Below are positions 15,049 through 55,612 of a stretch of 64,000 nucleotides of DNA, piece by piece (within the stretch, counting starts at the first letter, position 1; every line of letters starts with the position of its first letter). The DNA is from Arthrobacter sp. H16F315 (lineage in GTDB: Bacteria; Actinomycetota; Actinomycetes; Actinomycetales; Micrococcaceae): assembly GCF_024124825.1 (NCBI RefSeq), contig NZ_JAMXSS010000002.1:248001-312000 (forward strand), read 5' to 3'. The position numbers were made by a program, and so were the translations under genes. The notes beneath the pieces are model-generated. The model did not search any database. It was given only the letters and a program-made list of their open reading frames with translations, and was not told the DNA's origin.

Positions 15049-15104
15049 AAGGAACTCCATCACTAAGGCGGCGCAGGGTACGCCGCATTGATTCGGGTTC
15101 CTCC

Positions 15105-15315
15105 CCGCTCTGTATTGGACCTGAGAGTTTCCGCGCAGCCCTGCTCTCGCAGGTCTCCGCTTGCACCGTCGGTGAGCACAGCATGTCAAAGGACAGCCTG
15201 CTACTTTCCAGAGTTGCCTTGCCGCGGCGGTACATGGGCCTGAGAGATTCCTGGGGAGGGTTTGCTCCTACGGCGCCTGCTTGTACCTACTTGCAGAACT
15301 CTCCCGCCGCAGATC
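15105..15315 (-). ncRNA. Tandem glycine riboswitch (gcvT RNA element)
   Basis: Two consecutive glycine aptamers lie in the gcvP leader, read on the minus strand. The first (about 15312 down to 15230) has the closing helix GGGAGAG / CTCTCAGG and the core GCCGTAGGAGCAA. The second (about 15215 down to 15110) has ACTCTGGAAAG, the core CCGACGGTGCAAGC and a closing AACTCTCAGG. Core and flanking helices match the known class. Glycine riboswitches usually switch gcv operons on when glycine is plentiful. The expression platform between 15105 and the gcvP start was not resolved. Confidence 0.93.
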
Positions 15316-15485
15316 AAAGGCATATTCAATTTCTCGTGACCGCAGTCACAGCTTCCATTGTCCTATGCCCGGCCCCGGTCCGCAAACTCCCGACGCCGCC
15401 GGCACGAAGTCGCGGGTGAGCTGCGAGATCGCCGCAAACTTCCGGCGACCTCGAGCGCTTCCGGCGATTTCGGCGCGGAGCCGCC

Positions 15486-18351: not shown

Positions 18352-19170
18352 TCAGACAGCTTGGTTGAGCACCGGCCCGGTCGGATACAGGGTCCTGGTG
18401 ATGCCCCCCGCCGTGGCTTCAGCAAGCTGGGAGAGGTAGTCGTTACGGCGCCGCGGCGTGATCCTGGACTGGGGCTCGAAAGCCTCCCCGGGATGGTCCG
18501 TGTAGTGGGCGGTCAGTCCGTCCCGCATCAACCGGATGGCCTCGGAGCGCTGCTGGGAGACCGCCGCATGGGTGGATCCTAGTTCCGCGGCCAATTCCTT
18601 GACGGTCCGGTCCCCGAAGTAGATCTCTTCCACCACGTAGCGCATCCGCTCGGGGAGGGACTTGACCGCTGCACGGAGGTACTGGAGGCGCTCATCCGCT
18701 AGTACAGAGTGCTCCGGGGTCATGGTTTCGGCAGCCAGCGTGTCAACGACGGCTTCGTCCAGCGGCGTCAGCGTGCGGGAAGCATCGGACAGCGCCGCCT
18801 CCACAACACTCTGCTGGACACCCAGTGCCGCGGCGATCTCGTCAACGCTGGGCTTTCGGCCCAGGGCGGCGGCGAGGGTCTCCTGGACCGACATGGTTTC
18901 TTTCATCCGGCGGCGCGCTGAGCGGGTGGCCCAGTCGCTTGCACGCATCTCATCAGCAAATGCGCCGAGGATGCGCCGGCGCGCGAATGCGCCGAACGGC
19001 ACGCCGAGGTCCGGGTTGAAGGAGTCAGCAGAAGTGATCAGGGCGATGGCACCAGCAGACGCCAGGTCATCACGGGAGAGGTGTGAAGCCTTTGAGCACA
19101 AGTCAGAGACGAGGTAGCCCACCAGCGGAAGATGCTGTGTGACCATCTCGTTGCGTTCCACGCGATTCAA
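18352..19170 (-). CDS. fliA: Flagellar-type sigma factor (FliA/SigD/WhiG-like sigma-28)
   Basis: Alternative sigma factor of 272 residues. Region 2 is seen in DLASAGAIALITSADSFNP and VPFGAFARRRILGAFADEMR, region 3 in the following 60 residues, and region 4 in LPERMRYVVEEIYFGDRTVKE plus ELGSTHAAVSQQRSEAIRLM. Region 1.1 is absent, as in FliA. The start is TTG at 19170, with GGGGGGA about seven bases ahead; GTG at 19161 is possible. Five promoter-like sites in the flagellar genes fit the binding preference of this sigma class. No flgM anti-sigma gene was found in the window. Confidence 0.9.
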   Translation of the reverse strand: MNRVERNEMVTQHLPLVGYLVSDLCSKASHLSRDDLASAGAIALITSADSFNPDLGVPFGAFARRRILGAFADEMRASDWATRSARRRMKETMSVQETLAAALGRKPSVDEIAAALGVQQSVVEAALSDASRTLTPLDEAVVDTLAAETMTPEHSVLADERLQYLRAAVKSLPERMRYVVEEIYFGDRTVKELAAELGSTHAAVSQQRSEAIRLMRDGLTAHYTDHPGEAFEPQSRITPRRRNDYLSQLAEATAGGITRTLYPTGPVLNQAV

Positions 19171-19943: not shown

Positions 19944-20204
19944 CTACTCGCTGCCCCCGGCCGGTATTGCCGGCCGGGCTTTCGGAAGCAACCCGCGGAG
20001 GGCATCCTCAGCGTCCGGCCCGGCATTGGCTGCGGCCAGGTTGGCCAAGGCGATCGCCTCGACGACTTCTTTGCGCTGGATCGAAATTCCACGCGGGGCG
20101 TCAATCCCGATCCGGACACCATCACCGCGCCCTTCCAAGACCGTGATGACGATCCCGTCGCCAATCATGATCTGTTCGCCCGGCTTGCGTGTTAGTACCA
20201 GCAT
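19944..20204 (-). CDS. csrA: Carbon storage regulator CsrA (RNA-binding)
   Basis: Dimeric RNA-binding protein that represses translation at GGA motifs. The conserved body is MLVLTRKPGEQIMIGD, then RIGIDAPRGISIQRKEV with the RNA-contacting Arg/Ile/Arg residues. At 86 residues it is longer than the usual 61-75 because of an Ala-rich C-terminal tail. Last gene of the fliM-to-flhF operon. With fliW elsewhere in the cluster and GGA sites in the fliC leader, flagellin mRNA is its likely target. Confidence 0.95.
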   Translation of the reverse strand: MLVLTRKPGEQIMIGDGIVITVLEGRGDGVRIGIDAPRGISIQRKEVVEAIALANLAAANAGPDAEDALRGLLPKARPAIPAGGSE

Positions 20205-36457: not shown

Positions 36458-36888
36458 GTGGTCACCTGGGTGTCGTCCCGGTGAAAGACAGTGGACGCAA
36501 TCTCATCCAGCGCTGACTGTTCGGCCTGCAGGTCTGCGCTCAGCACTTCGGCTTGATGCCGGGCCTGGAGCTTCTCCAAGCCAACGGAGCGGACCCTCGC
36601 AGCGGTAAATGCCTCCCGAGCCGCGGACTCGTCTGCCTGGGCGATCGTGGTCAGGCCCCGCAGCTCCGCCAGCATACTGTGCGAGGAGGACCGGGCGGCC
36701 GCGACGGCCCGCAGCGAGGCGGAGCTGACAACGTCCGCGTCGTCGATCGACAAGTCACGGCGGGCCGCAGCTTCCCGGGCGCGCACGGAACTGGAACGAG
36801 ACCTGGCCCGGGCCAGGCCAGTGGCGGCTTGATCCTGCTGGATCCGGCGGAGCCGCAAGAGCCCAGCCAGCGAAAATTGACGGTTCAT
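36454..36888 (-). CDS. fliJ: Flagellar export protein FliJ
   Basis: Coiled-coil protein of 144 residues that links the FliI ATPase to the export gate. It begins MNRQFSLAGLLRLRRIQQDQ, followed by long Ala/Arg/Glu helices without Pro. Its ATG overlaps the fliI stop (ATGA), which decides the start. Sequence conservation is low; the call leans on position and coiled-coil composition. Confidence 0.82.
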   Translation of the reverse strand: MNRQFSLAGLLRLRRIQQDQAATGLARARSRSSSVRAREAAARRDLSIDDADVVSSASLRAVAAARSSSHSMLAELRGLTTIAQADESAAREAFTAARVRSVGLEKLQARHQAEVLSADLQAEQSALDEIASTVFHRDDTQVTT

Positions 36889-38215
36889 GCCGCTGCTCCC
36901 AGAGTCGAGGTGAGGTACGCGAGCCGTTGCCACGACTCGGGGTGTCCGGTGGAATCTTCCATTGATTGCTGCAGGAAGGCGTTCACGTCCTGCTCGTGGT
37001 TCAGTGCCGCATCAACGAGTGGGTTGGTGCCGGCCTGGTAGGCCCCGACATCGATCAGGTCCTGGGCGGCTTTCCGGGCCGCGAGGACACGGCGGAGCCC
37101 CGCGGCAGCGGCGAGGTGATCCCGGGTGTTGACCTTCGAGGCCACACGCGAGATGGATCCGAGGACGTCCACGGAGGGAAAGTGGCCCGTGACGGCCAGT
37201 TTCCGGTCGAGGACAACGTGCCCGTCCAGGATGGAACGGGCGGCGTCGGCGATCGGCTCGTTGTGGTCATCGCCGTCAACCAGGACGGTGTAGATGCCGG
37301 TGATTGAGCCGGTTTCGGCGGTGCCGGCCCGTTCCAGCAGCCGGGCAAGGACGGAAAAAGTCGACGGCGGATAACCGCGGGTGGCTGGGGGTTCGCCGGC
37401 TGACAGGCCGATCTCGCGCTGGGCCATGGCGACGCGGGTCAACGAATCCATCATCAGGACCACGTTTTGGCCCTCGTCCCGGAACGACTCCGCGATCCGG
37501 GTAGCGGTGAAAGCGGCGCGCATGCGCATCAGCGCCGGCTCGTCCGAGGTGGCCACCACAACGATGGAGCGCGCCAGTCCCTCGGCGCCAAGGTCGTCCT
37601 CGAGAAACTCGCGGACTTCGCGGCCGCGTTCGCCGACCAGGGCGATGACCGAGATTTCGGCGTCGGTCCCCGGGCGATCATCGAGAGCAGGGAGGATTTC
37701 CCGACGCCGGAACCGGCGAAGAGCCCCATCCGCTGGCCCTTGCCGAGGGTGGTCATGGTGTCCAGGACACGGACACCGGTCTGCAGCGGCGTGTCGATGC
37801 GGGCCCGTTTCATGGCCAGCGGCGCCTCGTTGTCGATGGGCACGCGCGGCCCGCTCGTGAGCGGGCCCTTGCCATCGATGGGCCGTCCGAGGCCATCGAT
37901 GACGCGGCCAAACAGCCCCCGCCCGGTGGGGACCAGCATTGTGGTGCCCGCTTTGGCCCGGACCGGATCACCGGCGGCGACTCCGGCAAGCCGGCCCAGC
38001 GGCATGCAGCGGAGGGTGCTGCCCATCGCGGCGACTACTTCGGCGTCCAGACCGGGATTTTCCCCAACGGTCACGAGCTCACCCAGTGCACCGTCGAGGC
38101 CGGAAACTTCCAGGCTCAGGCCCACCACGGACGTCACTACGCCCACCCGTTGGGGAGCGGCGGCCCGCAGTGCGGCGGTGAAAGAGTCCCCTTTTGGGCG
38201 CCATTGGGTCATCAT
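36885..38215 (-). CDS. fliI: Flagellum-specific ATPase FliI, frameshifted
   Basis: F1-beta-like ATPase energising flagellar export. Walker A is AGSGVGKSS with Lys173; the next motifs ISVIALVGERGREVREFLED, VVLMMDSLTRVAMAQREIGL and GEPPATRGYPPSTFSVLARL follow. Frames break right after Walker A at SMIARG/TDAEIS, where one base is missing in the C4 run at 37668-37671. Repaired length is about 443 residues. Overlaps fliH and fliJ. Confidence 0.95.
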
Positions 38216-38850
38216 GGCTGTCCGTCCATGGTCCGGTCGCCCCAGTCGCCGTCGCTGAGCAGGGCAGTACGGACCCTGGCCAGGGCGGTGCCGAGGCTCG
38301 CGTCAAGCCAGCCATGCTCGTAGTCAACTTTCGCGTCGCCGCGGTTCAGGCTTGCGTCCGGGAGCAGCGGAAGCCCGGCGGGCAGGTCCAGGCCTTCCTT
38401 GTCCAAGACGTCAATGTCGGCGGGGTTGAGCCGCACCGCAACCAAGGTGCCGGGGTCGCTGGCGGAAAGGGCGCGTTCGATGGCGGCCCGGGCCGTCCGG
38501 GTGCCGTCCGCGAGTTCGTAGCCCAGGATGGCCTCGGCCAGTTCCAGGGCCGTTCGGGCGAGGACTTCATTGGCATCCCGGAGGGCCTGGACGTTGCGGT
38601 GTGCGAAGTCCGTCCTGGCCACGGCCAACGCGCGCACTGCCCGGTCCAGGTCCTGCTGGCCCGCCGCCAGGGCAGCAGCCTGCTCCGCCGCCATTCGGTC
38701 CCGCCAGCGCCGCTGTTCCTTTGCTGCGGCGCGGACCCCGGCAGCGTAGCCCGCGGCGTGGCCTTCGGTGAATCCGGCCTGCTCGTTGGCGGGACCGGTG
38801 GTCCGCAGCGACGGGTAGACAATCCGCGCGGGACTGGTGTCAGTAGACAA
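38212..38850 (-). CDS. fliH: Flagellar assembly protein FliH
   Basis: Negative regulator/stator of FliI, about 212 residues, with Ala/Arg/Gln-rich helices including GHAAGYAAGVRAAAKEQRRW and a C-terminal V1-ATPase-E-like part (LVAVRLNPADIDVL, KVDYEHGWLDASLGTALARV). The TTG at 38850 has GAGGAAG just ahead and overlaps the end of fliG by 11 bases; a GTG at 38868 is possible. Confidence 0.87.
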   Translation of the reverse strand: MSTDTSPARIVYPSLRTTGPANEQAGFTEGHAAGYAAGVRAAAKEQRRWRDRMAAEQAAALAAGQQDLDRAVRALAVARTDFAHRNVQALRDANEVLARTALELAEAILGYELADGTRTARAAIERALSASDPGTLVAVRLNPADIDVLDKEGLDLPAGLPLLPDASLNRGDAKVDYEHGWLDASLGTALARVRTALLSDGDWGDRTMDGQP

Positions 38851-41765: not shown

Positions 41766-42157
41766 CAGGATCTTCCAATCTCAAGGGCGGCCATGTAGCT
41801 TTCACGGGCGCGGTCCACAACCTGGGCATTCGCCTGGTAGCCGCGCTGGGCGATAATCAGCGCGCCCATCTGTTCGGCCATGTCAATATCCGGATATTTC
41901 ACGTTCCCGTTGGCGTCCGCGAGCGGGTGGTCCGGCTGGTACACGATCCGGCCCTCGCCGTTGCCCAGCTGCGTGCTTTTCACGTACACCCCGGTGAGGT
42001 CGGCGCCTTCTCCGGCTTCCACGTATTTAGCCTGGAACGCCGGGCCCGAGGTGCGCGAGACATTGTTCATGTTGGCCAGGTTGTCCGAGACGGCGTCGAG
42101 CCATTTCCGGTGCACGGTGAGGGCGGAACCGGCAATTCCGATCGCGTCGAAAGTCAT
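41765..42157 (-). CDS. flgC: Flagellar basal-body rod protein FlgC
   Basis: Proximal rod subunit of 130 residues. N-terminal GIAGSALTVHRKWLDAVSDN followed by LANMNNVSRTSGPAFQAKYV, and C-terminal MAEQMGALIIAQRGYQANAQ with VVDRARESYMAALEIGRS. Overlaps flgB by one base. Confidence 0.95.
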   Translation of the reverse strand: MTFDAIGIAGSALTVHRKWLDAVSDNLANMNNVSRTSGPAFQAKYVEAGEGADLTGVYVKSTQLGNGEGRIVYQPDHPLADANGNVKYPDIDMAEQMGALIIAQRGYQANAQVVDRARESYMAALEIGRS

Positions 42158-42498
42158 CAGTTCGTCCTCATGGCCGAGCGGACGGCGGTGAACTCGTAGC
42201 CGAGGGCACGGGTGGCGAACTGGAAGCGAAGTACCGTGTCGATGTTGGACAGGGTTTCGGTGTCCAGGTTGACGTTGTTGCCGTTCAGCTGGGTGGGTTC
42301 CAGGGATGCTGCCGTGGTGGCCTGGGCATGACCGTCGCCGGAACGCACCGAGGCCGCGAGGGCGTCCTCGAAGGCCACGCGCTTGGCCTGGTAATTGGGC
42401 GTATTGACGTTCGCGATGTTGTTCGCGATGCTGCGCTGGCGCAGCGCCAATCCGTCCAAGGCGCTGGACAGGGCTGCGGAGGTCACGGATTCGAGCAC
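42157..42498 (-). CDS. flgB: Flagellar basal-body rod protein FlgB
   Basis: Proximal rod subunit of 113 residues. LALRQRSIANNIANVNTPNY followed by QAKRVAFEDAL is the family signature. The GTG at 42498 follows AGGATCCCC. First gene of the large basal-body operon, with a near-consensus sigma-28-type promoter 72-98 bases upstream. Confidence 0.94.
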   Translation of the reverse strand: MLESVTSAALSSALDGLALRQRSIANNIANVNTPNYQAKRVAFEDALAASVRSGDGHAQATTAASLEPTQLNGNNVNLDTETLSNIDTVLRFQFATRALGYEFTAVRSAMRTN

Positions 42499-42569
42499 GG
42501 GGATCCTGCCTGGGTGGTGGGATGGCCGATCCGTGGCCGTTAAACGAGCGATCCGTGCTCTATCAGTGG

Positions 42570-42596
42570 TTATCGGCACACTCCCGTGGCGCGTTA
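42570..42596 (-). promoter_or_regulatory. Sigma-28-type promoter before flgB
   Basis: Minus strand TAAC (42596-42593), exactly 15 bases, then GCCGATAA (42577-42570), identical to the classical FliA -10 element. The best site of the five found in the window. Confidence 0.85.
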
Positions 42597-45019: not shown

Positions 45020-46207
45020 TTAGCGCAGGAGCTGCAGGACACCCTGGTTGGACTGGTTCGCCTGCGCGAGCATGGCGGTACCGGCCTGGGACAGGATGTT
45101 GTTGCGGGTGAACTTGACCATTTCCTCGGCCATATCCGTGTCGCGGATACGGGAGTTGGAAGCCGTCAGGTTTTCCTTGGCAACGTTGATGGTCTGCACA
45201 GCCGACTCGAGCCGGTTCTGGGAAGCACCCAGTTCGGCGCGGGCGGTGGACACCTTCGTGATCTGGGTGTCCAGCATCTTGATGGATGCCTGGGCGTTGG
45301 CGGCCGTGTCAAACTTCAAACCCCCGGTGACGGCGGTGCCGGTGGAACCACCGGTAGCCAGACCGGTGGCCGGGGCGGCAGTCGTGGAAACCGTACCGCC
45401 GTTGAGGGCGGTCACCACGAGGCCCGTTCCGGCACCGTTGGCATCCTTTGTCACGCTGACCGTGAAGTTGGAGGAGAAGTTGGAGTCGGACCGCAGTGCG
45501 GTAGCGTATTCTTCCACGCTCTGGAAGCCCGTAGCCGATGCGTCAGCGGTGTCCGCGAGGACCCCGGTGGTCACAGTCGACTTGACGCCGCCTGCAGTGC
45601 TCTCAAAAGTAGCAGCACCCGTCGTCAGGGTCGTCACGTCTGCGATAGCGAATGACGAGCCCGTCGTGGTCAGGTCGCCGCCGGCGAGGGTGTTGGCGAT
45701 CGTCTTGACGTTGGCACCGCTGAGGTTGACGTCGATCTGGCTCGCCGTGTCAGCGTTGGCGCCAACCTGGAAGGACAGGGTCTTGGAGCTGTTCAGCAGC
45801 TGGGTGCCGTTGAAGTTCGTCGAACCTGCAATGCGATCCAGTTCCTTGACCAGGCTGTTTGCCTCGGTCTTGATGGCGCCACGTGATTCGGCGTTGTTCG
45901 TGTCGTTAGCTGCCTGGACACCCAGGTCACGCAGGCGCTGCAGGATGGACTGGGTCTGGTTCAGGCCGCCTTCAGCGGTCTGAACGGCGCCAATGCCGTC
46001 CTGGGCGTTACGGGCGGCAACCGAAAGGCCACCGATCTGGGACTTCAGGCCTTCGGACAGTGCCAGGCCGGCCGCGTCGTCGCCGGCGCGGTTGATCCGC
46101 AGGCCGCTGGAAAGCTTCTCCAGCGACTTGGACAGGTCCATCTGCGTGTTGCTCAGGCTGCGGTAAGCGTTGTTAGCAGCCAGGTTGGTGTTGATCTGCA
46201 TTCCCAT
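45020..46207 (-). CDS. fliC: Flagellin
   Basis: Filament subunit of 395 residues. D0/D1 N-terminal helices start INTNLAANNAYRSLSNTQMD and continue with SSGLRINRAGDDAAGLALSE. The C-terminal D1/D0 part is LGASQNRLESAVQTINVAKE, then RDTDMAEEMVKFTRNNILSQ and ANQSNQGVLQLL. The centre is a Thr/Ala/Gly-rich variable domain of about 200 residues. Monocistronic, with its own sigma-28-type promoter, a GGAGGA ribosome-binding site and a probable CsrA-binding leader. Confidence 0.97.
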   Translation of the reverse strand: MGMQINTNLAANNAYRSLSNTQMDLSKSLEKLSSGLRINRAGDDAAGLALSEGLKSQIGGLSVAARNAQDGIGAVQTAEGGLNQTQSILQRLRDLGVQAANDTNNAESRGAIKTEANSLVKELDRIAGSTNFNGTQLLNSSKTLSFQVGANADTASQIDVNLSGANVKTIANTLAGGDLTTTGSSFAIADVTTLTTGAATFESTAGGVKSTVTTGVLADTADASATGFQSVEEYATALRSDSNFSSNFTVSVTKDANGAGTGLVVTALNGGTVSTTAAPATGLATGGSTGTAVTGGLKFDTAANAQASIKMLDTQITKVSTARAELGASQNRLESAVQTINVAKENLTASNSRIRDTDMAEEMVKFTRNNILSQAGTAMLAQANQSNQGVLQLLR

Positions 46208-46212
46208 GATGT

Positions 46213-46256
46213 TTCCTCCGTGAGTGGGACGATGTGCGATGGCCCATCCGTGGGCC
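46213..46256 (-). promoter_or_regulatory. Predicted CsrA-binding leader of fliC
   Basis: On the minus strand GGCCCA-CGGA-TGGGCC (46256-46241) is a perfect six-base stem with a CGGA tetraloop that exposes a GGA. Downstream, CACGGAGGAAAC places a second GGA motif in the ribosome-binding site (GGAGGA at 46219-46214, six bases before the ATG). CsrA dimers bind two such GGA sites in Bacillus hag mRNA; here the pairing is inferred from sequence and from csrA and fliW in the same cluster. Confidence 0.65.
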
Positions 46257-48436: not shown

Positions 48437-49360
48437 ATGATCAACCGGGTTACGAACCTGACCATGACCACGGCCGCCCAACGCACCCTGCAGACCCAGC
48501 AGACGCGGCTGGCGCGGCTGCAGGAAACCGCGACGTCACTGAACAAGATCACCCGTCCCTCCGACGACCCTTCCGGCACCGGACAGGCCCTGCAGACCCG
48601 GTCGCGGCTGGCAGCGAACGCCCAGTACGGCCGGAACATCCAGGACGGCGCGGGCTGGCTCAACGCAGCGGACTCCGCCCTGGGTCAGGCCACCAACGTG
48701 CTCGACCGAATCCGTGACCTGACGGTGCAGGCAGGCAACGGCACCCTGAACCAGACGGCCAAGGACGCGATCGCGATCGAATTCGACGCCCTGAACAAGG
48801 ACCTGCTGTCCATTGCGAATACCAAACATCTCGGCCGCAACCTCTTCGCCGGCAGCTCCGACGACGCCACCGCCTTTACGGCGCCCGTTCCGCCCAACCC
48901 CCTGATCCCGGGCGACACCGGGACCCCGGCGAAGTTCAACGGTATGTCGGGTAGCAGCGTCGAGCGCCGGATCAATGACAACCAGACCGTCCGGGTCGAC
49001 GCAGATGGCGGCAAGGTCTTTGGCGACGGCGCCGCAAGCGTCTTTTCCTTGGTCAGTGGCATGGCGGCGGCTCTGCGTAACGGCTCCGACATCACACCGC
49101 GATTGGCGGACTTGGACGGCGTGTTGGCATCTGTCGTCGGAGGACGTGCTGAAATAGGTACACAGCAAGTTCGGCTGGAACGTGCCGGCACCGTCAACTC
49201 TGAACTGGAGAATTCCTTGGAAGCGCAGCGTAGCGGCATCGAAAAGATGGACCTCGGCAGTGTCATCCTGGACCTGAAACTGCAGGAAACCAACTACCAG
49301 GTTGCGCTGGCAGCCACCGCCAAAGTCCTCCAGCCGTCGCTGATGGACTTTCTCCGGTGA
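48437..49360 (+). CDS. flgL: Hook-filament junction protein FlgL (HAP3)
   Basis: Second junction protein, 307 residues. Flagellin-like N-terminus MINRVTNLTMTTAAQRTLQT with KITRPSDDPSGTGQALQTRS and C-terminus LDLKLQETNYQVALAATAKV. It begins two bases after flgK and its stop overlaps the fliW start (GTGA). Confidence 0.94.
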   Translation: MINRVTNLTMTTAAQRTLQTQQTRLARLQETATSLNKITRPSDDPSGTGQALQTRSRLAANAQYGRNIQDGAGWLNAADSALGQATNVLDRIRDLTVQAGNGTLNQTAKDAIAIEFDALNKDLLSIANTKHLGRNLFAGSSDDATAFTAPVPPNPLIPGDTGTPAKFNGMSGSSVERRINDNQTVRVDADGGKVFGDGAASVFSLVSGMAAALRNGSDITPRLADLDGVLASVVGGRAEIGTQQVRLERAGTVNSELENSLEAQRSGIEKMDLGSVILDLKLQETNYQVALAATAKVLQPSLMDFLR

Positions 49361-49749
49361 GCACGGCCGTGATGAATACCCCAGTGATGTTCACCGCTCC
49401 GCTGCCTGGGCTGGAGGGCGCCAATGACTTCACGCTCCGCAGCATCGAAGGTGCGCCGGGACTTTATGCGCTGGAGAGTTTAGTGCCCACCCCGCTCCGG
49501 CTGTTCCTGGCCGACGCGGCGATCTTCGTGCCCGAATATTCTCCGCGGGTACCCGCAGCCGTGCTCGCAGACCTTGAACTCGATCAGGACCAGGACCCGC
49601 AGGTTCTGGTGGTTGTCACCCCTTCAGCCGACTCCACGACGGTGAATCTGATGGCCCCGATCGTGCTGAATCCGGGAAACCGCCGCTGCGTGCAGCTTGT
49701 GCTCGAAGGCCGCGATTACCCGCTCCGCGCCGAACTGAAATCAGCCTAG
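49357..49749 (+). CDS. fliW: Flagellar assembly factor FliW
   Basis: Protein of 130 residues that binds flagellin and, when free, CsrA, relieving repression of flagellin translation (known for Bacillus and Campylobacter). The family pattern is visible in FTAPLPGLEGANDFTLRSIE, the VVVTPSADSTTVNLMAPIVL stretch and the closing QLVLEGRDYPLRAEL. GTG start at 49357 overlaps flgL. Last gene of the unit. Confidence 0.92.
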   Translation: MSTAVMNTPVMFTAPLPGLEGANDFTLRSIEGAPGLYALESLVPTPLRLFLADAAIFVPEYSPRVPAAVLADLELDQDQDPQVLVVVTPSADSTTVNLMAPIVLNPGNRRCVQLVLEGRDYPLRAELKSA

Positions 49750-55512: not shown

Positions 55513-55612
55513 GCGCACGATCATGTGCCAATAACTGAATACACAACTGAAAAATAAGACCATTCACTACGGATCGTCCGGCACGTACCTGCCGGTGAAG
55601 GGATTGATAACT

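Follow-up and report, generated by a model that had tools for sequence, protein, structure and literature searches.

Flagellar genes and leader sequences in the window

The window is the whole stretch of 64,000 nucleotides of Arthrobacter sp. H16F315 DNA analyzed here. It carries a complete flagellin gene, fliC, which is read on the minus strand from an ATG at 46207-46205, the flgB operon, and genes for CsrA, FliW and a FliA/WhiG-like sigma factor (Table 1). An earlier note on this DNA, made from the sequence alone, had placed csrA and fliW in the cluster, and Pfam matches confirm that both genes are present and intact at those positions. The fliW gene overlaps flgL (48437-49360) by 4 bases.

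Table 1. Coordinates of the genes and predicted leader elements discussed in the text.
Feature	Position in window	Strand	Basis
fliC, flagellin	45020..46207	minus	Pfam PF00669 (Flagellin_N) E 5.4e-43, PF00700 (Flagellin_C) E 1.2e-26
fliC leader hairpin GGCCCA-CGGA-TGGGCC, candidate CsrA-type site 1	46241..46256	minus	sequence and covariation
Shine-Dalgarno region CACGGAGGA, candidate CsrA-type site 2	46214..46222	minus	sequence
sigma-28-like promoter of fliC, TTAC-N15-GGCGATAA	46268..46294	minus	sequence
csrA, 86 aa, extended C terminus	19944..20204	minus	Pfam PF02599 (CsrA) E 1.8e-24
fliW, 130 aa; GTG start codon overlaps the 3' end of flgL	49357..49749	plus	Pfam PF02623 (FliW) E 1e-25
FliA/WhiG-like sigma factor	18352..19170	minus	TIGR02479 E 2.1e-38, 132.3 bits, under the cut-off of 189.6
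sigma-28-like promoter of the flgB operon, TAAC-N15-GCCGATAA	42570..42596	minus	sequence
flgB leader hairpin 1, GAGC-ACGGATC-GCTC	42546..42560	minus	sequence; tandem count in relatives
flgB leader hairpin 2, GGCC-ACGGATC-GGCC	42524..42538	minus	sequence; tandem count; model R2
flgB from its likely GTG start	42157..42498	minus	NCBIfam TIGR01396

The earlier note had also described a perfect stem exposing GGA in its loop in the fliC leader and a second GGA in a GGAGGA ribosome-binding site. The sequence bears out both, at 46256-46241 and 46219-46214 of the minus strand, respectively. The stem has 6 pairs and closes the loop CGGA, whose GGA (46249-46247) lies in the core CACGGATG at 46252-46245. 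Downstream of the hairpin is CACGGAGGAAACATCATG, which contains the GGAGGA. The loop GGA and the Shine-Dalgarno GGA are each found within CANGGANG, which is described as the high-affinity CsrA/RsmE core (PMC4894983).

Both fliC and the flgB operon are preceded by a sigma-28-like promoter; the flagellar promoter consensus is given as TAAA / GCCGATAA (PMC8325347). A pattern for such promoters, drawn up after the leaders had been inspected, occurs in 95 of the 132 flagellin leaders (1-3 in each of five shuffles) and in 45 of 87 flgB leaders (0-2 in five shuffles). The FliA/WhiG-like sigma factor is the candidate user of the fliC and flgB promoters. Given the position of the predicted fliC promoter, the fliC mRNA would begin with the hairpin.

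The fliC hairpin alone has a folding energy of -12.6 kcal/mol, equalled by 1 of 200 dinucleotide shuffles. The stability of the whole 81-nt leader is ordinary relative to shuffles (z -0.09, single-sequence folding), and folding of this single leader would therefore have missed the hairpin. Over 2.6 Mb (both strands of the named loci described below and the window), the frequency of a CANGGANG core flanked by 4 or more of the 5 outer pairs is 0.006 per 85 nt; since the leaders themselves contribute to the count, this is an upper bound for chance occurrence. A covariance model of the fliC hairpin, R1, was built from 109 rows that include the hairpin of the window, and its top match in the whole genome of the organism is the fliC leader at 28.4 bits, followed by one at 23.3 bits. 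The 17 matches below the fliC leader were set aside; all eight of those inspected (L140-L146, L148) fall within an open frame longer than 150 codons on either strand, a weak test in a G+C-rich genome. One R1 match of 18.3 bits lies across the start of fliI (38215-38238).

Rfam 15 gave no match at the gathering score at the fliC and flgB leader sites, where the best scores (13.3 and 9.4 bits) belong to unrelated families and are far under the cut-offs. Elsewhere in the window, Rfam matches identify two glycine riboswitch aptamers in tandem (15100-15316, minus strand) and an msiK leader RNA (55552-55610, plus strand).

Conservation and covariation of the fliC hairpin

Relatives were sampled from 77 named loci encoding homologues of the window flagellin and from 394 genomes of the class, 59 of which have a flagellin-domain match; the 55 above the family cut-off were used further. 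The leaders were read without requiring a hairpin. The two sets overlap slightly (G195/L027 and G336/L032), and the covariation counts are of distinct hairpins only.

The CANGGANG core is present between -85 and -27 in 126 of 132 flagellin leaders that were unselected for pairing. In the outer stem around the core, 5.19 of 6 positions are paired on average in flagellin leaders, compared with 2.35 of 6 around 952 background cores from the named loci and the window. Eleven of 143 rows, all of them without a core as read, had been dropped before this count: L033, which has a misplaced start (inspection shows the hairpin at both true flagellin starts); L073, from Comamonadaceae; L122 of G079; L125 (G378) and L127 (G269), flagellin-like genes of genomes that lack csrA as well as fliW; and six places that resemble hook protein (L128-L132 and one in L133). 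When L073, L122, L125 and L127 are scored as misses, the count becomes 126 of 136. The core is absent from six of the 132 leaders: one of the five leaders of G093, one of the four of G046 and one of the two of G220, the single leader of G022, where a GGA hairpin of the looser type is present, and the two leaders of G370.

The arms of the hairpin vary and remain complementary. Across 109 distinct hairpins, which were required to have the core plus 3 or more of 5 pairs (selection by the core alone also yields 109 distinct members), 86.7% of cells are paired and 178 cells are changed on both sides. The covariation score is 0.549, compared with 0.153 for shuffled alignments (0 of 500 shuffles reach it) and at most 0.134 when the partners are slid. 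Changes on both sides affect 7 of the 8 pairs, which is uninformative as a single count because 159 of 500 shuffles also reach 7. RNAalifold recovers the same hairpin from the alignment. Two of the 109 hairpins (L056 and L066) are from Clostridiales MAGs. At one stem position (columns 7/18 of alignment A1), the two bases are mismatched in 26 of the 109 hairpins; 24 of these mismatches are purine-purine (GA, AA, AG, GG), and an internal mismatch is perhaps tolerated or even preferred there.

For the second site, a GGA lies no more than 22 nt from the start codon in 132 of 132 flagellin leaders, and in 105 of 143 leaders a CANGGANG core begins no farther than 25 nt from it. The distance from the loop GGA to the Shine-Dalgarno GGA is 25-31 nt in 98 of 126 leaders and 30 nt in the window. 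Two leaders have an additional element: that of G030 (L083) has two GGA hairpins in tandem before flagellin, and that of L060 has a second GGA stem-loop downstream of the first. Outside the class, a GGA hairpin is found in 38 of 48 flagellin leaders under a loose rule that lacks a chance control, and we make no count-based claim there for this reason.

CsrA, FliW and their co-occurrence with the hairpin

The NCBIfam models for CsrA and FliW both match below their curated cut-offs, CsrA narrowly. The window CsrA has L4, R6, R44, I51 and N55, of which R44 is a residue for RNA binding and I51 and N55 are residues for FliW binding. Among the CsrA sequences of 21 loci, two of them from Clostridiales MAGs, R44 is present in 21 of 21, I or V at position 51 in 20 of 20 aligned and N55 in 18 of 18 aligned. 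V51 and N55 are reported as FliW contacts of Campylobacter jejuni CsrA, and N55 also of the Bacillus subtilis protein (PMC7829508). The top PDB sequence match of the window CsrA is the CsrA of 5dmb, an entry that also contains FliW. The window FliW matches 2aj7 (E 2.7e-11) and then 5dmb_A (E 3.8e-8).

The csrA and fliW genes are kept or absent together: both are present in the same 50 of 55 flagellin-positive genomes, and neither is present in the other 5. A fliW match is near fliC in 67 of the 77 named loci. According to the earlier note, its proposal would fail if relatives with both csrA and fliW had lost the GGA from the loop; for the most part, the relatives bear the proposal out. Among the 42 such genomes with a readable flagellin leader, the strict core is kept in at least one copy in 40 and a looser hairpin in 41; the remaining 8 genomes with both genes offer no flagellin place to read. 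The exception is G079, which has csrA and fliW and one clear flagellin place (L122) with no CANGGANG core in the 500 nt upstream. Two of the five genomes without csrA and fliW keep the hairpin by the strict or the loose rule (G023 and G370, both incomplete assemblies), one (G032) has a hook-protein-like match only, and two (G269 and G378), known here from flagellin-like genes alone, are without it. No flagellated clade cleanly without csrA was found among the genomes surveyed.

Tandem GGA hairpins in the flgB leader

R1 matches before flgB in three named loci led to the reading of flgB leaders, which revealed a pair of tandem hairpins that the earlier note had not described. In the window, the GGA-to-GGA distance between hairpins 1 and 2 is 22 nt, and TIGR01396 matches the open frame 42157-42579 at 73.3 bits, above its cut-off. 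Two GGA-loop hairpins with at least 4 pairs each and 18-28 nt apart are present in 69 of 87 flgB leaders, compared with 54 of 4680 random stretches from the named loci and the window. This is a stricter recount, made because a looser test (81 of 87 compared with 205 of 4680) had picked some pairs that are not the element, such as those of L041, L042, L061, L167 and L169. Under the looser test, 75 of the 81 leaders have a GGA-to-GGA distance of 20-26 nt, with a mode of 22 nt. This spacing is near 18 nt, the optimal spacing of sites for a CsrA dimer (PMC4894983).

In the genome of the organism, the tandem model R2, which includes the flgB leader of the window, scores this leader at 48.4 bits and the next match at 21.5 bits; 23 weaker matches were set aside. 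Across the 394 class genomes, R2 has 40 matches at E 1.4e-4 or better in 37 genomes, all of which belong to the 59 with a flagellin match and none to the other 335. R2 was built from many of these leaders, and hence only the absence elsewhere is informative. Weaker matches (E to 0.01; 91 genomes in all) occur in both the flagellin and the non-flagellin groups. On 54 FliW-positive genomes of other classes, R2 has no strong match and weak ones in 8 (best 28.4 bits), and the element therefore looks restricted to Actinomycetia.

Three extra strong R2 matches are all in flagellated genomes. In G382, a cassette of promoter and tandem hairpins is also found before fliP (L260, C3:118679-118720; Pfam E 1.2e-74), and one of the same type before fliH (L261, C3:128433-128475; E 8.6e-9), as if copied onto new operon heads. 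In G237, the tandem element precedes a gene with an M23 peptidase domain (L262, C12:56251-56292; E 1.1e-29) on a contig other than that of flgB, and the leader of this gene is a candidate further CsrA target.

Alternatively, hairpin 1 (TGAGC-N7-GCTCA) could mainly be a DNA dyad for a transcription factor, in which case only hairpin 2, or neither, would bind CsrA. Across the class, the GAGC/GCTC arms scarcely vary, as would be expected of a DNA site, and leaders read without selection show the same; in alignment A2 (63 distinct of the 87 leaders, with 18 of 87 skipped), the rows were chosen by pattern and the fixed GGA and part of the arms are such by construction. Formal covariation gives the flgB stems no clear support (77.5% paired compared with 76.8% in shuffles; score 0.085 compared with 0.070, reached by 23 of 500), and since the stems are nearly invariant, covariation speaks neither for nor against the hairpins. 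The predicted minimum-energy fold of the 72-nt leader, for which single-sequence folding is uninformative (z -0.65), contains neither hairpin and pairs the arms otherwise. The trinucleotide preference speaks against a DNA dyad. When all 64 loop trinucleotides are counted as tandem hairpins in the 87 leaders, GGA reaches 69, the overlapping GAT and CGG reach 41 and 32, and the others at most 3. The regular GGA spacing under the looser test, and a loop that is common to both hairpins despite their different arms, also speak against it. We regard the dyad as unlikely, though it is the most serious of the alternatives. The GGA preference, the spacing and the common loop in two different stems favor CsrA, which probably binds at the flgB leader in some form.

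The 5' arm and loop of hairpin 1 (GAGCACGG) are also complementary, over 8 nt without a mismatch, to the flgB start region (CCGTGCTC; both within 42496-42560, minus strand). This pairing is only weakly apparent across 70 leaders, in which the longest match averages 5.0 nt compared with 3.9 nt for shuffled arms.

Function of the fliC hairpin

The fliC hairpin could also be explained as an mRNA-stabilizing 5' hairpin, or as part of an attenuator, with an incidental GGA in the loop. Stabilizing hairpins are usual at mRNA 5' ends, the predicted location of this hairpin, and its stem is rich in G+C. A stabilizer needs no fixed loop, yet CANGGANG is at the same place in nearly all of the unselected leaders, and GGA is the most frequent of the 64 hairpin-loop trinucleotides in flagellin leaders (105 of 132, followed by the overlapping GAT at 77 and CGG at 69). 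In the window, moreover, the stem is not followed by a T run. Overall, a stabilizing or attenuating role is very unlikely.

A degenerate system, in which csrA and fliW would act on other targets and the sites in the leader would be remnants, appears to be slightly less probable still. The gene for the flagellar export ATPase, fliI, is present in the window as two open frames (36885-38215, minus strand), with the N-terminal part of FliI at 37529-38215 and the C-terminal part at 36885-37559. The split appears to be a frameshift or a sequencing error, and if it is real, the strain may not build flagella. Against decay, the leader sites are kept in many genera, and csrA and fliW are retained or missing as a pair.

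The least credible reading is that of an interrupted palindrome serving as a DNA operator near the transcription start: the hairpin does lie just downstream of the -10 box (the core begins 22-24 nt after a CCGAT-like element in 76 of 100 leaders with such an element), but a dimeric DNA site should fix its arms, and arms that are free yet complementary around a conserved asymmetric core fit a protein site on RNA better.

Comparison with known systems

The best reading of the fliC leader is that of a two-site CsrA target, with an anatomy closest to that of Campylobacter flaA. The switch is established in Bacillus and Campylobacter (PMC7652899, PMC4894983). As described in PMC4894983, the C. jejuni flaA leader also has a short 5' UTR, a GGA site 1 in a stem-loop and a site 2 over the ribosome-binding site, and its structure is likewise kept by compensatory changes. 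The same source reports a FliA promoter, FliW as the CsrA antagonist and the binding of many other flagellar mRNAs, for which the counterparts here are predicted. In flaA, both sites are in hairpins with a spacing of 21 nt, whereas the spacing here is 30 nt and site 2 showed no conserved hairpin on inspection. In the C. jejuni pull-down, flgB was at 0.7 to 1.6 x, compared with more than 300-fold for flaA (PMC4894983); in contrast, the tandem hairpins here precede flgB. The hag leader of Bacillus subtilis also has two CsrA sites, one of them over the Shine-Dalgarno sequence, and FliW relieves the repression (PMC7652899). This system is from a different phylum, and the sections of PMC7652899 consulted do not mention a flgB site. 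The earlier note had recognized the parts of the FliW-CsrA-Hag switch of Bacillus. All of the parts that can be checked by sequence are indeed present, including a stem with compensatory changes, but Campylobacter flaA is at least as close a parallel as hag.

The proposal that such a switch exists in an actinobacterium is also supported by the sequence, but the idea is older. In Kineococcus radiotolerans, an actinobacterium with csrA in a motility island, CsrA control of flagellin was proposed in 2008, and 9 of 12 bases in the Shine-Dalgarno region of the flagellin gene are the same as in the hag site (PMC2587704). Unlike the present analysis, that proposal, in the sections of the paper seen, says nothing of a hairpin further upstream, of FliW, of whether the site is conserved or of flgB. 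FliW control of CsrA in actinobacteria was suggested from gene presence (PMC4682653), and in the main text of a 2023 study on the flagella of actinobacteria, csrA and fliW each appear a single time, in the list of queries (PMC10746217). A literature search of limited depth found no report of a flagellin-leader hairpin in actinobacteria, for which the Kineococcus Shine-Dalgarno site is the nearest precedent, and none of a class-wide covarying hairpin or of CsrA sites before actinobacterial flgB. CsrA control of actinobacterial flagellin is thus an idea known since 2008, of which the fliC leader is a well supported further case.

A possible model for flgB is another early flagellar operon, flhDC of Escherichia coli, where CsrA binds the leader and stabilizes the mRNA (PMC2587704). 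In contrast to flgB, this is the activation of a master regulator through an unrelated leader. Gammaproteobacteria are described as being without FliW (PMC7652899).

Proposed mechanism and implications

The comparative sequence evidence makes it very likely that a FliW-CsrA-flagellin translational switch acts at fliC, with the flgB leader most likely a second CsrA target. In the mechanism that we infer, a CsrA dimer would dock at the GGA in the loop of the 5' hairpin and span the 30 nt to the Shine-Dalgarno GGA downstream, so that ribosomes could not load. As long as export is blocked, cytoplasmic flagellin would hold FliW. When flagellin leaves the cell, FliW would be freed to bind CsrA beside its RNA site, at I51 and N55, and the block would be lifted.

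The flgB leader hairpins, which are less certain than the fliC site, would place the same brake on the basal-body operon. CsrA may act there by repression, by protection of the mRNA or through its own titration. These two leaders suggest that a single translational brake acts at the beginning as well as at the end of flagellum construction. A broader and more doubtful extension, which we offer tentatively, is that in flagellated Actinomycetia the early flgB and the last fliC mRNAs share a sigma-28-type promoter and 5' CsrA hairpins, and that a single CsrA-FliW pool orders assembly at translation with no transcriptional cascade. The tandem flgB leader would then be a high-affinity site and may titrate CsrA off fliC as an mRNA sponge.

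In summary, there is strong comparative evidence that the switch operates across a class of Gram-positive bacteria in which, according to the literature searched, it was previously only suggested. A class-wide tandem leader of CsrA type before the basal-body operon, which we did not find reported, is added to it. In the actinobacterium Actinoplanes missouriensis, all flagellar genes are described as being transcribed together without a transcriptional checkpoint (PMC8306008). Similar promoters and CsrA-type leaders on early and late mRNAs could supply the order of assembly at the level of translation.
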